In this document: in pieces, positions 53,391-57,394 of the stretch
How the letters are laid out: each line of letters begins with the position of its first letter
Numbering within the stretch: position 1 is the stretch's first letter
Assembly: GCF_015097055.1 (NCBI RefSeq)
Contig: NZ_AP023366.1
Location: 2,082,001 to 2,146,000, forward strand
Source: Effusibacillus dendaii
GTDB taxonomy: Bacteria > Bacillota > Bacilli > Tumebacillales > Effusibacillaceae
Reading direction: 5' to 3'
Length of the DNA: 64,000 nt
Position numbers and translations under genes: made by a program
The notes under the pieces: generated by a model
Database searches by the model: none
What the model saw: the letters and a program-made list of their open reading frames with translations, nothing else
What the model was told of the DNA's origin: nothing

Positions 53391-53559
53391 AGCAAGACTC
53401 CTTTTTCATAATGTTCACGCGAATGATGGCATCCAACTCGTTACTAGATCCACTATAGTACAGATTGTAAAATCAGGGGAGCCATATTCACCCAATTTTG
53501 TTGATGATCGGTGGATATACTCATTTCCGAAGGGAACATTTACGAACGGGGGAACGGAT

Positions 53560-54136
53560 ATGACGATCGATTACACACCGACAATCTGGCCGGAAGAACC
53601 GCCTCTAATCGATGCGGTCAATTGCCAAAAATGTGAACTTGCGATGCAGCGTAAACGGGTCATATGGGGAGAAGGAGATCCGAACGCTCCCATCATGGTG
53701 CTCCCGGACAATCCGGGAGCACGGGAAACGCCGTCCGGCGAGTCGTTTGTATGTGGAACGCGGCAAACGTTGCAGATAGCCGTCCATCAAGTCGGTTTAC
53801 AAAAAGAGAACCTGTACATCACGTCTATTCTGAAATGCCGTCCCATTCGGGCCTATCAAAAAGACACAGCCTGTTCCGCCTGTCTATCCCACCTGAATCG
53901 ACAAATCCTTGAAAAATCGCCGCAAATGTCATTCTGTCTCGGCAATGTGGCGGTTCAATCTTTTTGGGACGACCCTACTTCGGACATCAAACCCCTGCAG
54001 GGTACCTGGCACACGGTTCGGGGTATTCCGACTGCAGTTTCCTATCACCGCTGGTTATCCGCCGCAGGCCGAATCTTCTTGGCGTTTTTATGGAGGATTG
54101 GCAACAGGTAGCCGAGCGGTATCGTACGCTTGATTA
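53560..54136 (+). pseudogene. Uracil-DNA glycosylase family gene with a C-terminal frameshift
   Basis: The frame starts at ATG 53560 and encodes a family 4-like Fe-S uracil-DNA glycosylase: cluster Cys in NCQKCELAMQ and LKCRP...TACSAC, motif A as VLPDNPGARETPSGESFVCGTRQTL (the Bacillales NPGARE variant) and LGNVAVQSFW. After TAVSYH the frame drifts. The expected end is found one base over: LVIRRRPNLLGVFMEDWQQV, ending in ERYRTLD and TAA at 54134-54136. Restoring one C (CACCCGCTGG versus CACCGCTGG at about 54049) repairs it and restores the catalytic H-P motif. The product as written would lack its last helix. Confidence 0.78.
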
Positions 54137-54180
54137 ACACTCTTGCCAAGTTACATTTTGAAAAGAAAAAAGCCACCCCT

Positions 54181-54504
54181 CTACGGCGCCAAGTTCACTT
54201 CGACCCATACTTCAGACCATTTTTGAATGCCGCGAATGATCGGCTCCAAGGCGTTCCCTTTTTCCGTTAAGGAGTACTCGACACGTATAGGTACTTCCGC
54301 GTATATTTGACGGTTTACGAGACCTTCCTCTTCCAATTCTTTGAGTCGTTCCGAGAGAAGTCTTCCGCTCACGGGAAGCGCTGATTCAATTTCAGAAAAT
54401 CTTTGGGGCCCGGAAAGAAGCTGATATAGGATCAAAACGGTCCACCGCTTGCCAAGCAACTGCATGGCTTTTTCAAATCTGGGTCAGAGATGAGAACCGT
54501 GCAT
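54181..54504 (-). CDS. HxlR-family redox regulator, candidate selenoprotein with Sec at the sensing Cys position
   Basis: A 107-residue frame starts at ATG 54504 with AAGGGGG seven bases upstream and reads MHGSHL-TGA-PRFEKAMQLLGKRWTVL. The TGA at 54484-54486 sits at residue 7, where the paralogue at 55194-55523 has Cys (MEHETLCPKFESAFNLLGKRW) and where YodB Cys6 and CatR Cys7 of B. subtilis sense quinones and diamide. The rest is a normal winged helix (LSGPQRFSEIESAL, LSERLKELEEEGLV, VEYSLTEKGNAL). A SECIS-like hairpin follows the TGA. An internal ATG at 54465 has no ribosome-binding site and would remove the conserved N-terminus. A well-spaced SigA promoter precedes the gene. Alternatives are a nonsense mutation or a sequence error. 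Confidence 0.72.
54451..54468 (-). promoter_or_regulatory. SECIS-like hairpin in the HxlR gene
   Basis: Counting U of UGA as 1, GCCA (19-22) pairs with UGGC (33-36) and GC (24-25) with GC (30-31) across one U-U mismatch; the loop is AGUU (26-29). The loop begins 22 bases after the UGA and has G at its second position, meeting the general bacterial SECIS model. Confidence 0.55.
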
Positions 54505-54530
54505 ATACTTACCCCCTTACTCGTAAATTC

Positions 54531-54559
54531 AGTATACTCTTCCCCTAAGTCCTTTTCAA
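54531..54559 (-). promoter_or_regulatory. SigA-type promoter of the HxlR gene
   Basis: On the minus strand TTGAAA (54554-54559) and TATACT (54531-54536) are 17 bases apart, with AAGGGGG and the ATG about 25 bases downstream. An intact promoter argues that the gene is still expressed. Confidence 0.7.
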
Positions 54560-54620
54560 AAAACAGTTTTCCTGAATCGCATAATCCGAATCTACCGTTA
54601 AAATTACATCCGTCCCGATT

Positions 54621-54659
54621 GTAAAAAATTACGGTTAAGCACCAGTAAGTGCCTAACCG
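54621..54659 (-). terminator. Terminator after the first doxX gene
   Basis: CGGTTAGGCAC and GTGCTTAACCG pair on the minus strand (one bulge each), followed by TAATTTTTTAC. Confidence 0.8.
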
Positions 54660-54710
54660 CTAATATTGTCTTTGATTGCCCAAAGACGATTGGTCTCCTG
54701 CTAATTACAA

Positions 54711-55097
54711 TTATGCGGATTTGTTAGCCTTCTGCAAAGCCCATGCGCCCGGACCGCTCAAAAAGACAGAAACAGCGCCGGCCAGTAAAAGCAGCTCCAA
54801 CTCGTACCCGCCAACATATCCCTTCCCTACTTTCGTGAGAAGAATTGCCAGCAGCATATCGATCGCCAAAAGAGGGGATACAAATCGTGTACCTGACCCA
54901 ATGAATAGCAAAATCCCTCCGGCAACTTCCAGCAACCCAATGAAAATCACAGCCTGATAAGGCAGCGGAATGCCAATTTTCTCGAAAAATGGAGCCACTT
55001 GTGCCGCGTTTGTGAGCTTTGGCAACCCGTGCAGAATAAATGATAGCGCAAGTACAAAACGGATGACCGTTGGAGCAAACCTCGAAAGTTTATCCAA
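54711..55097 (-). CDS. DoxX family membrane protein (copy 1)
   Basis: This membrane protein of about 128 residues has four hydrophobic segments (VIRFVLALSFILHGLPKLTNA, VIFIGLLEVAGGILLFIGSG, LLAIDMLLAILLTKVG, ELLLLAGAVSVFLSGPGAWAL). DoxX/MhqP-like proteins in Bacillus are induced by quinones under HxlR/MarR-type regulators and are thought to help thiol-stress resistance at the membrane. The start is a TTG at 55097, 7-8 bases after AGGGGA; a TTG at 55118 is also possible. A perfect 12-bp inverted repeat lies just upstream. Confidence 0.88.
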   Translation of the reverse strand: MDKLSRFAPTVIRFVLALSFILHGLPKLTNAAQVAPFFEKIGIPLPYQAVIFIGLLEVAGGILLFIGSGTRFVSPLLAIDMLLAILLTKVGKGYVGGYELELLLLAGAVSVFLSGPGAWALQKANKSA

Positions 55098-55120
55098 AAA
55101 TAAACTCCCCTTCCACAAAA

Positions 55121-55151
55121 TTACGTTAAGTAATGTACTTACTTAACGTAA
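55121..55151. promoter_or_regulatory. Perfect inverted repeat, probable HxlR operator
   Basis: TTACGTTAAGTA and TACTTAACGTAA are perfect 12-base arms separated by seven bases, 24 bases upstream of the doxX start and 43 bases past the end of the second hxlR gene. The TACTTA/TAAGTA core recurs in the promoter of the second doxX gene, so an HxlR protein is the likely binder. Confidence 0.6.
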
Positions 55152-55193
55152 CGAATAATACTTTAGTAACAAAATTTAATCAAGTATTATTTT

Positions 55194-55523
55194 TTAGTCG
55201 ATCGGATTCGTGTTGTTTACCCAGGTTTCAGCCCATTTCTGTACTTGTTCCATTACAGGTTGAAGCGCTCGTCCTTTATCAGTCAATTCATATTCTATTC
55301 TTACCGGAATTTCCGGATAAACCGTCCGTTTGATAATATCCTCTGCTTCCAACTCCTTGATTCGCTCCGTCAACATCCGATCGCTCATGTTCGGGATCAC
55401 TTCGGAGATTTCTTTGAAACGCTTGGGTCCGCTTAGAAGCACTTGGATAATCAGTCCACTCCAACGTTTTCCCAATAAATTAAAAGCCGATTCAAACTTT
55501 GGGCACAATGTTTCATGTTCCAT
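55194..55523 (-). CDS. HxlR-family transcriptional regulator with N-terminal sensing Cys
   Basis: This 109-residue regulator (LLSGPKRFKEISEVIPNMSDRMLTERIKELEAEDIIKR) is a winged-helix protein of the HxlR family. Its Cys7 in MEHETLCPKFE aligns with the redox-sensing Cys of YodB/CatR, and it is close to YodB overall (MESAFSLLGKRW-like region FESAFNLLGKRW). It is divergent from the second doxX gene and probably represses it. It also serves as the internal control for the UGA at residue 7 of its neighbour at 54181-54504. Confidence 0.93.
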   Translation of the reverse strand: MEHETLCPKFESAFNLLGKRWSGLIIQVLLSGPKRFKEISEVIPNMSDRMLTERIKELEAEDIIKRTVYPEIPVRIEYELTDKGRALQPVMEQVQKWAETWVNNTNPID

Positions 55524-55538
55524 TGAGATATCACCTCT

Positions 55539-55612
55539 CGCTACTTATTTTATCATAGTCACTTGACAAAAGTAAGTTATTGTTTGTATTATACTGACAT
55601 AAAGTAAGTAGC
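55539..55612 (+). promoter_or_regulatory. Promoter and likely HxlR operator of the doxX-pirin operon
   Basis: TTGACA (55563-55568) and TATTAT (55587-55592) with 18-base spacing form a promoter. It is flanked by GCTACTTA (upstream) and TAAGTAGC (downstream), with a further AAGTAAG inside, matching the TACTTA/TAAGTA element of the site at 55121-55151. Confidence 0.6.
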
Positions 55613-55646
55613 AAACATTTTGTATAACAGAGGAGGAATATTAGAA

Positions 55647-56024
55647 ATGAGCGCAGGTCTGCTTATTATTCGTTTAATTGTGGGGTTGACTTTTATGGGA
55701 CACGGCGCCCAAAAACTTTTCGGTTGGTTCGGCGGATATGGTCTGAAAGGAACCGGCGGATGGATGGAATCAATCGGATTTAAGCCGGGGGTTCTGATGG
55801 CTGCCTTAGCCGGTATTGCCGAATTGCTGGGTGGACTCCTGCTGGCTTCCGGCGTTTGGTTTACATTAGGCGCCGCACTTATTGTCATTACGATGTTAGG
55901 TGCGATTCCTGTGCATATTAAAAATGGATACTGGGCTGATAAAGGCGGATTTGAGTATCCATTCATTCTAATCGCAATCGCTGTCGGCTTGGCACTAATC
56001 GGACCAGGAGGTTACACACTATGA
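55647..56024 (+). CDS. DoxX family membrane protein (copy 2)
   Basis: This 125-residue DoxX protein has four membrane segments (LLIIRLIVGLTFMGHGAQKLFGWFGGYG, LMAALAGIAELLGGLLLASGVWF, ALIVITMLGAIPVHI, FILIAIAVGLALIGPG). The MGHGAQKLFGWFGG segment is the typical MhqP/YfiD type. The start is the ATG at 55647 after AGGAGG. Its stop overlaps the pirin start (ATGA), so the two are translationally coupled. Confidence 0.93.
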   Translation: MSAGLLIIRLIVGLTFMGHGAQKLFGWFGGYGLKGTGGWMESIGFKPGVLMAALAGIAELLGGLLLASGVWFTLGAALIVITMLGAIPVHIKNGYWADKGGFEYPFILIAIAVGLALIGPGGYTL

Positions 56025-56725
56025 TTAAGGTATACCCTGCGGAGTCGCGGTTTAACGCGAACCACGGGTGGCTGCAAAGTTACTTCAGCTTTTCGTTTGC
56101 AGAATATTACGATCCCACCAACATGAATTTCGGCCCCATGCGTGTCCTAAACGATGATACGGTGCAACCTAAAGAAGGATTTGGAGACCATCCGCATCGC
56201 GAAATGGAGATTGTCACGATTGTGCTGAAAGGACAGTTGCAACACCGGGACAGCGTTGGGAACACCGAGATATTGAGATTCGGAGAAGTGCAGCGAATGA
56301 CCGCTGGAACAGGTGTCATTCACTCAGAAGTAAATCCGTCCGAAACGGAAGAAGTAAACCTGCTGCAGATGTGGTTTGAACCCATGCAAAGAGGGCTGCA
56401 CCCTTCTTACGAGCAAAAGGCATATAATAAGTCAGACATGAAAAATCGCCTGTTGCCGGTTGTTTCAAACCAGCATCACTCCGAGAATGTGACCCATATT
56501 CATCAGGATATGACGATCTATCTTTCGGAACTGGATGCAGGCAGCTCCCTTTCGTTTACACAAGCCCCCAATCGGCGAATCTTCTTTTTTGTAATCGAAG
56601 GGGAAGTAAATTTGAATCAGACTGATAAGTTAAAAAGACGTGACTCGGCAAGAATCACCGCCACCCCAACATTAGACATTCAAACAGATACCGGGGCGTT
56701 TATCATGTTAATTGATTTGCCATAA
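56021..56725 (+). CDS. Pirin family protein (YhhW-like)
   Basis: This 234-residue bicupin has the metal ligands in FGDHPHREMEIVTIVLKG and the downstream His/Glu in GTGVIHSEVNPS. Some pirins have quercetin 2,3-dioxygenase activity; others are regulators. Its coupling to doxX and nearness to wrbA suggests a role in quinone or electrophile handling. Length and motifs are normal. Confidence 0.93.
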   Translation: MIKVYPAESRFNANHGWLQSYFSFSFAEYYDPTNMNFGPMRVLNDDTVQPKEGFGDHPHREMEIVTIVLKGQLQHRDSVGNTEILRFGEVQRMTAGTGVIHSEVNPSETEEVNLLQMWFEPMQRGLHPSYEQKAYNKSDMKNRLLPVVSNQHHSENVTHIHQDMTIYLSELDAGSSLSFTQAPNRRIFFFVIEGEVNLNQTDKLKRRDSARITATPTLDIQTDTGAFIMLIDLP

Positions 56726-56782
56726 GTTCGGTTAATACACATTTTAAATACAATACCTACATTTGAATGGAGGATCCTTCAC

Positions 56783-57394
56783 ATGGCCAATGTAAAGCTT
56801 GCAATTATCTACTACAGCTCGACAGGCACTAACTACAAGCTCGCTCAAACAGCTGCTGAAGCGGCAAGAGAAATAGGCGCGGATGTAAAAGTTTTGAAGG
56901 TACAGGAACTGGCACCAGAATCCGCAATCGAAAGCAACCCGGCATGGAAAGCTCATTATGATGCGACGAAAGATGTGCCCGTCGCAACACCTGATGACAT
57001 CGTATGGGCCGATGCAGTGATCTTCTGTACACCGACTCGTTTCGGGAATGTGGCATCACAAATGAAGCAATTTCTGGATACTACCGGTGGGATTTGGTTT
57101 CAAGGCAAAACCGCTAATAAAGTAGTAAGTGCAATGTCTTCCGCAAGCAACTCTCACGGCGGCCACGAACAGACAATTCTCGCTCTATACGCCACGATGT
57201 ACCATTGGGGTGCTATTGTTGTGGCTCCAGGCTATACAGACCCTTCTGCATATAAGGCGGGGGGAAATCCATATGGAACAAGTGTAACGGTCGATAACAA
57301 CGGCAACTGGATAGAGGACGTGACGGATGCGGTACGCCATCAGGCTAAACGGGTTGTAACGGTAGCAGATTGGATAAAGAAAGGTCAGGCCTGA
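56783..57394 (+). CDS. wrbA: NAD(P)H:quinone oxidoreductase WrbA
   Basis: This 203-residue flavodoxin-fold enzyme has FMN-binding IIYYSSTGTNYKLAQTAAEA, FCTPTRFGNVASQMKQFLD and GGHEQTILALYATMYHWGAIVV. It carries out two-electron reduction of quinones, avoiding semiquinone radicals. GGAGGATC precedes the ATG. It lies 57 bases after the pirin gene and ends at a terminator, so it is probably in the same stress operon. Confidence 0.93.
   Translation: MANVKLAIIYYSSTGTNYKLAQTAAEAAREIGADVKVLKVQELAPESAIESNPAWKAHYDATKDVPVATPDDIVWADAVIFCTPTRFGNVASQMKQFLDTTGGIWFQGKTANKVVSAMSSASNSHGGHEQTILALYATMYHWGAIVVAPGYTDPSAYKAGGNPYGTSVTVDNNGNWIEDVTDAVRHQAKRVVTVADWIKKGQA

Follow-up and report, generated by a model that had tools for sequence, protein, structure and literature searches.

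A candidate selenocysteine-containing HxlR repressor of the YodB/CatR type in Effusibacillus dendaii and two Ammoniphilus genomes

Background

In Bacillus subtilis, the redox-switch residues of the repressors YodB and CatR are Cys6 and Cys7, respectively (PMC6798810). Cys6 of YodB is the residue alkylated by quinones, and the operator of this protein is TACT-N7-AGTA (PMC8063818); YodB and CatR both repress catDE, the catechol dioxygenase operon (PMC6212828). Enzymes, redox carriers, transport proteins, and proteins without a known role make up most of the prokaryotic selenoproteins listed at present, and a 2026 table of 119 prokaryotic selenoprotein families and subfamilies includes no HxlR or other helix-turn-helix repressor (PMC13188914). 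From Methanosarcina, a TetR-family candidate of the pyrrolysine (TAG) type has been listed (PMC1914089). No HxlR selenoprotein was found in the literature that we searched, which left out preprints and most subscription papers, and the relevant passages of PMC9312934, PMC1914089, PMC12013277, and PMC1088965 contain no selenocysteine (Sec) repressor of such a type. Absence from print is thus unproven, and within these limits a statement to the same effect in an earlier note, made without database searches, stands.

Here we analyze a gene, termed Sec-HxlR below, in a 64,000-nucleotide stretch of the Effusibacillus dendaii genome (the window). Among solved structures, that of B. subtilis YodB is closest in sequence to the gene product (E = 2.2e-27), and the cysteine of its MCPKME segment aligns with residue 7 of our protein (U7), in support of the earlier proposal that U7 occupies the redox-sensing position of the YodB family. 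We consider it very likely that Sec-HxlR is a genuine selenoprotein, a YodB/CatR-type repressor with a single selenocysteine, because a Sec-decoding machinery, the recurrence of the UGA in three genera, the coding constraint downstream of it, a constrained hairpin, and homology to YodB all point the same way. This conclusion is drawn from sequence alone, with no protein or selenium data, and the evidence base comprises only three Sec sequences.

Gene structure of Sec-HxlR

The gene and its immediate signals are as follows.

54181..54504 (-): Sec-HxlR gene, 107 residues with U7; PF01638 over residues 16-102
54484..54486 (-): UGA codon 7, at the position of YodB Cys6, inferred to be read as selenocysteine
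54512..54518 (-): ribosome-binding site AAGGGGG, read directly, 7 bases 5' of the ATG
54531..54559 (-): sigma-A-like promoter site TTGAAA-17-TATACT, 10/12 matches
54172..54187 (-): terminator-like stem-loop with a T run, overlapping the Sec-HxlR stop codon

The frame runs on the minus strand from an ATG (54504-54502) through TGA at codon 7 (54486-54484) and 100 further sense codons to a TAG ending at 54181, i.e., MHGSHL-TGA-PRFEKAMQLLGKRW..., with the product MHGSHLUPRFEKAMQLLGKRW... if TGA is taken as Sec. The HxlR winged helix-turn-helix domain is present (Pfam PF01638, 110 bits versus a cut-off of 20.8), and not one cysteine occurs in the whole product. The promoter-like site, the ribosome-binding site, and the terminator-like stem are positioned as in an ordinary gene. 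Equally good promoter-like sites number 9 in a 2.2-kb region against 3.2 expected, and therefore the promoter site is weak evidence by itself. The earlier note had described an intact promoter, ribosome-binding site, and ATG, followed by TGA at codon 7 and 100 open codons, as well as a paralogue 0.7 kb away with Cys7 in the context L-C-P-K-F-E; both descriptions held (the paralogue lies at 55523-55194), with the reservation just given for the promoter.

Conservation of the UGA codon

A protein search for homologues gave matches in 89 of 101 genomes (the window genome and its relatives). We aligned 62 HxlR-search loci to the query without imposing any motif, and 54 of them align through residue 7: the position is cysteine in 51 and TGA in 3, namely, the window gene and two Ammoniphilus genes. 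This is the outcome of a search, proposed in the earlier note, for homologues with UGA or Cys at this residue. The conserved N-terminal redox cysteine is thus absent from Sec-HxlR as such and is satisfied only as a Sec/Cys pair. The other eight loci (L001, L004, L005, L053, L054, and L109-L111) are divergent and do not align at residue 7; none has a cysteine at the ungapped position, and five have one a single residue later. The motif-free alignment replaces an earlier count made with a motif that demanded Cys or stop, which had given the same 51 Cys and 3 TGA.

We searched a collection of 84,980 species, each represented by a single genome, for the degenerate DNA pattern TGA-P-(K/R)-...-(G/S)-K-(K/R)-W. 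Among the 16 matching stretches, two, from Ammoniphilus resinae (L061) and Ammoniphilus sp. YIM 78166 (L068), are HxlR genes whose TGA falls on the same codon; the remaining 14, unrelated frames containing stops, were discarded. With a looser pattern, 3 of 398 genomes in a sample of the class match, all of them in HxlR genes (the window genome, G144, and G173), and the G144 and G173 matches are the same 45 bases as those of L061 and L068. By group codes, G144 and G173 belong to a family different from that of the window genome and to two genera, and the TGA form occurs in 2 of the 15 genomes of the order of G173. The same UGA is therefore conserved over three genera, as defined by these codes.

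Three sister species from the genus of the window genome were examined: none matches the TGA pattern, and their best HxlR matches are only 46-50% identical, for which reason it is possible that the gene has moved horizontally. In the order of G066, a genome with a Cys-containing relative (see below), the pattern is found in none of five genomes. On viral contigs, 24 stretches matched a peptide pattern and none is a relative; three matches there to the TGA pattern lie in frames full of stops and were dismissed. On plasmids, tblastn returned 593 records (best, 72%; the cysteine position was not read), and blastn with the Sec-HxlR gene itself gave no match.

Internal TGA codons were also checked in a partial set of the other homologue matches. 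Those in the HxlR matches of G002, G085, and G024 proved to be the genes' own stops. A separate case is the HxlR gene of G007 (L150, G007:C1:3828300-3829100; 41% identical), whose internal TGA falls on a different codon, within a frameshifted-looking stretch. This gene is probably a damaged relative and not a Sec form; hence, damaged HxlR genes do occur.

Coding constraint downstream of the UGA

Downstream of the UGA, divergence among the three Sec genes is 61-84% at synonymous sites and 7-13% at nonsynonymous ones. The dN/dS ratio is 0.11 for the window and A. resinae genes and 0.04 between the two Ammoniphilus genes; in the third pair dS is saturated, so that ratios are given for two pairs only. 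Strong purifying selection acts on the codons that follow the TGA, which would not be seen in a dead gene. Between the UGA and codon 12, the residues P, R, and E are unchanged while each of their codons varies synonymously; one F/I change is seen, and codon 12 is free.

A constrained SECIS-like hairpin

One further feature lies downstream of the UGA.

54451..54468 (-): SECIS-like hairpin GCCA-U-GC-AGUU-GC-U-UGGC, loop AGUU at 54461-54458

The predicted stem is short (-8.8 kcal/mol), with a U-U mismatch below two G-C pairs. In all three Sec genes the distance from the UGA to the loop is 22 nt and G occupies loop position 2. Under the published bacterial SECIS rule, the loop has 3-9 nt, carries G within its first two positions, and lies at a distance of 16-37 nt from the UGA (PMC13188914). 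The AGUU hairpin meets it, but the rule is loose and is also passed by 17 of the 51 Cys homologues. Against shuffled sequences the hairpin alone gives z = -1.06, with 24 of 200 shuffles folding as well. We accordingly rejected it as stand-alone evidence, since comparable hairpins occur in shuffles and Cys homologues. The earlier description of an AGUU hairpin at 22 bases with G second thus held as a prediction, with a fold that by itself is within chance. An Rfam search over 53500-56000 gave no match.

The hairpin counts because of its conservation, not its fold alone. Over its codons (13-19), five of the six conserved degenerate codons are identical in the three Sec genes, compared to 12 of 64 elsewhere (Fisher P = 0.0026); when the Cys gene of G066 is added, the figures are 5/6 versus 6/56 (P = 0.0004). 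Codons 13-19 form the most conserved synonymous window in both comparisons, ranking first of 79 with the three Sec genes and first of 69 with G066 included. The only variable pair has changed on both sides, from A-U to U-A, ATG or TTG at codon 14 pairing with CTT or CTA, and over the three Sec genes and the G066 gene it is A-U in two and U-A in two. This single two-sided change is statistically weak, because the covariation score is reached by 75 of 500 shuffles. Taken together, the conservation of the hairpin goes beyond coding needs.

Phylogeny and a Cys relative with the same hairpin

In a tree of 51 rows, the three Sec genes form one clade (support 90/82, 94% of 200 bootstrap trees), nested inside Cys genes and next to the Cys gene of G066 (81/78). 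This gene (L026 1489-1821) has a TGT codon and a hairpin identical letter for letter to that of the window gene, with which it shares an unbroken run of 33 identical bases at an overall identity of 71%. The simplest reading is that a Sec ancestor reverted to Cys in G066, where the hairpin would be a possible fossil; alternatively, the hairpin could be older than the Sec codon.

Sec-decoding machinery

The window genome is a single contig of 3.45 Mb that encodes SelA (610 bits), SelB (401 bits, above the cut-off), SelD, and a tRNA-Sec (selC) with anticodon UCA (66 bits versus a gathering score of 47, with ARAGORN in agreement). With selABCD all present, the refutation that absence of selA, selB, or selC would have provided fails. 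The selD gene itself has an in-frame TGA (KAG-U-GCK; L021 1399-2532), as does an fdhA-like gene (ENQARI-U-HSSTVPG; G000:C1:1313835-1316636, part of it covered by L133), which has a hairpin with a GGUCU loop. Given the machinery and the UGA codons in these two genes, we infer, again from sequence alone, that other genes of this genome use UGA as a Sec codon. The fdhA-like hairpins were tried as a loop template and set aside: they are mostly GGUCU, not AGUU, and therefore the AGUU loop fits the general rule only.

The two Ammoniphilus genomes likewise contain selA and a selD with UGA, and in one of them (YIM 78166) tRNA-Sec is beside selA; SelB was looked for in the window genome only. The G066 genome, too, has selA.

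Some further observations were made on these components. The hairpin predicted for the window genome's selD has no G in its first two loop positions. Similar UGA-containing fdhA-like genes are seen in G173 (three), G154, G066, and G002. The YIM 78166 genome has two complete selA copies (L080 and L081), one of them directly behind the tRNA-Sec gene.

Neighboring genes and putative operators

The gene neighborhood in the window includes the following.

54711..55118 (-): DoxX-family membrane protein gene, possibly coregulated
55194..55523 (-): Cys-containing HxlR paralogue (Cys7 its only cysteine), about 0.7 kb from Sec-HxlR
55592..55606 (+): exact YodB-type operator TACT-N7-AGTA (putative), between the Cys paralogue and the next three genes
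55647..57394 (+): DoxX, pirin (quercetinase-type), and NADPH-FMN reductase/WrbA-like genes

The last three are probably quinone/redox stress genes. The window, L061 (3758-3772), and L068 (488-502) contain a single exact TACT-N7-AGTA box apiece, every one of them preceding one neighbor gene, with chance expectations over the whole stretches of 0.10, 0.03, and 0.08, respectively. The promoter of Sec-HxlR itself has no exact YodB box. A box with one mismatch (55136-55150) lies between the start of the DoxX gene at 54711..55118 and the promoter-like site of that gene; such boxes are no more frequent in the window than chance predicts (6 versus 6.85 expected). The exact box of the window and a one-mismatch box lie within 55560-55606, where the DoxX-pirin-FMN reductase genes beside the Cys paralogue have their promoter-like site.

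In A. resinae, YIM 78166, and G066, the HxlR gene is divergent from a gene for a LigB-type dioxygenase (PF02900 in all three). The nearest NCBI model of the A. resinae enzyme is 4,5-DOPA-extradiol-dioxygenase, below its cut-off. A DoxX gene follows the ring-opening dioxygenase in A. resinae and G066.

Alternative explanations

One objection is that the TGA is a recent nonsense mutation in a pseudogene or a sequencing error for TGC or TGT. A single base change from a Cys codon would suffice, the G066 relative has TGT, and G007 provides a damaged HxlR gene with an internal TGA, albeit at another codon. Against this, the same TGA occurs in three genomes at 61-84% synonymous divergence with dN/dS values of 0.11 and 0.04, and of the 58 single-base changes that could create a nonsense codon in the Cys relative, only 1 puts TGA on the cysteine. 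We regard this explanation as all but excluded. Another possibility is that UGA is decoded as a different residue, with a mischarged or specialized tRNA inserting Cys, or readthrough giving Trp. Such readings of UGA occur elsewhere; however, SelA, SelB, SelD, and a UCA tRNA-Sec are present here, and UGA is also found in selD and the fdhA-like gene, both among listed Sec families (PMC13188914), which makes this alternative very unlikely.

It could also be argued that the functional product is a truncated repressor started at internal codon 14, lacking the sensing residue, with the UGA a relic. There is indeed an ATG at 54465, and the HxlR domain match begins only at residue 16. However, only the window gene has ATG at codon 14; the two Ammoniphilus genes have TTG there, and all three lack, ahead of this codon, a purine-rich ribosome-binding site such as those found before the ATGs. 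Moreover, the Shine-Dalgarno sequence, ATG, and UGA remain in frame in all three genes, P, R, and E between the UGA and codon 12 are kept with synonymous changes, and the synonymous conservation of the hairpin would be left unexplained. Translation from the internal ATG only, which would have refuted the proposal as first made, thus has the sequence evidence against it, and we hold this rival, too, to be very unlikely.

Proposed mechanism and its implications

On the selenoprotein reading, UGA codon 7 would be read as Sec through SelB, tRNA-Sec, and the SECIS hairpin, the actual insertion being inferred. As Sec-HxlR has no cysteine, Sec7 is inferred to be its only redox-active chalcogen residue apart from methionine. 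A dimer would most likely bind a TACT-N7-AGTA-like operator, which is inferred without binding data. Alkylation of Sec7 by a quinone or electrophile, or its oxidation, would then most likely release the DNA; both the ligand and the redox dependence of binding are inferences. With no cysteine available, the product would be an inter-subunit Sec7-Sec7' diselenide, a mixed selenylsulfide, or an alkyl adduct. Release is predicted to derepress the DoxX, ring-opening dioxygenase, and quinone reductase genes, which are inferred targets. Under a lack of selenium, synthesis would stop at residue 6 and the same targets would be derepressed.

We also lean, with much less assurance, towards a bolder inference, namely, that the selenol sensor responds faster or at a lower dose to quinones or oxidants than the Cys paralogue and that its synthesis depends on selenium. 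Faster selenol chemistry and selenium as a signal had both been put forward in the earlier note, and both remain inference. If the bolder reading is true, the same genes receive input from both a shortage of selenium and electrophile stress. DNA-binding redox sensors would join the kinds of proteins known to use selenium, and a one-component repressor with Sec as its sensor would demonstrate that gene control can read the redox state through selenium chemistry. With a Cys paralogue in the same cluster and a Cys relative elsewhere that keeps the hairpin, the system offers a natural Sec/Cys pair for testing the benefit of selenium to a thiol switch.

Comparison with known systems

Two described systems link selenium to regulation in other ways. 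The FmdB-family "putative regulatory protein" is a selenoprotein named as regulatory in the 119-family table (PMC13188914), but it has a UxxU motif and a different fold, a zinc ribbon. LysR_Se/HrsM is a selenium-linked transcriptional regulator of the LysR family (PMC9312934); it is described as a selenium-specific regulator of other genes and not as a selenoprotein.

Closer parallels are found among thiol sensors. QsrR of Staphylococcus aureus is, like Sec-HxlR, a repressor of the YodB family; it senses quinones and has Cys5 and no Sec. In CatR of B. subtilis the sensing residue is likewise at position 7, but it is Cys7. CatR controls the catechol ring-cleavage operon catDE, and the Ammoniphilus Sec genes adjoin a ring-opening dioxygenase gene of the LigB type, with DoxX in one; this likeness rests on the sensor position and the targets, without a sequence comparison. 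YodB (PDB codes 5HS7-5HS9) is likewise an HxlR/DUF24 repressor with its reactive cysteine at the position of U7, but where YodB combines the thiol of Cys6 with Cys101 and Cys108, Sec-HxlR would have a selenocysteine and no cysteine at all.
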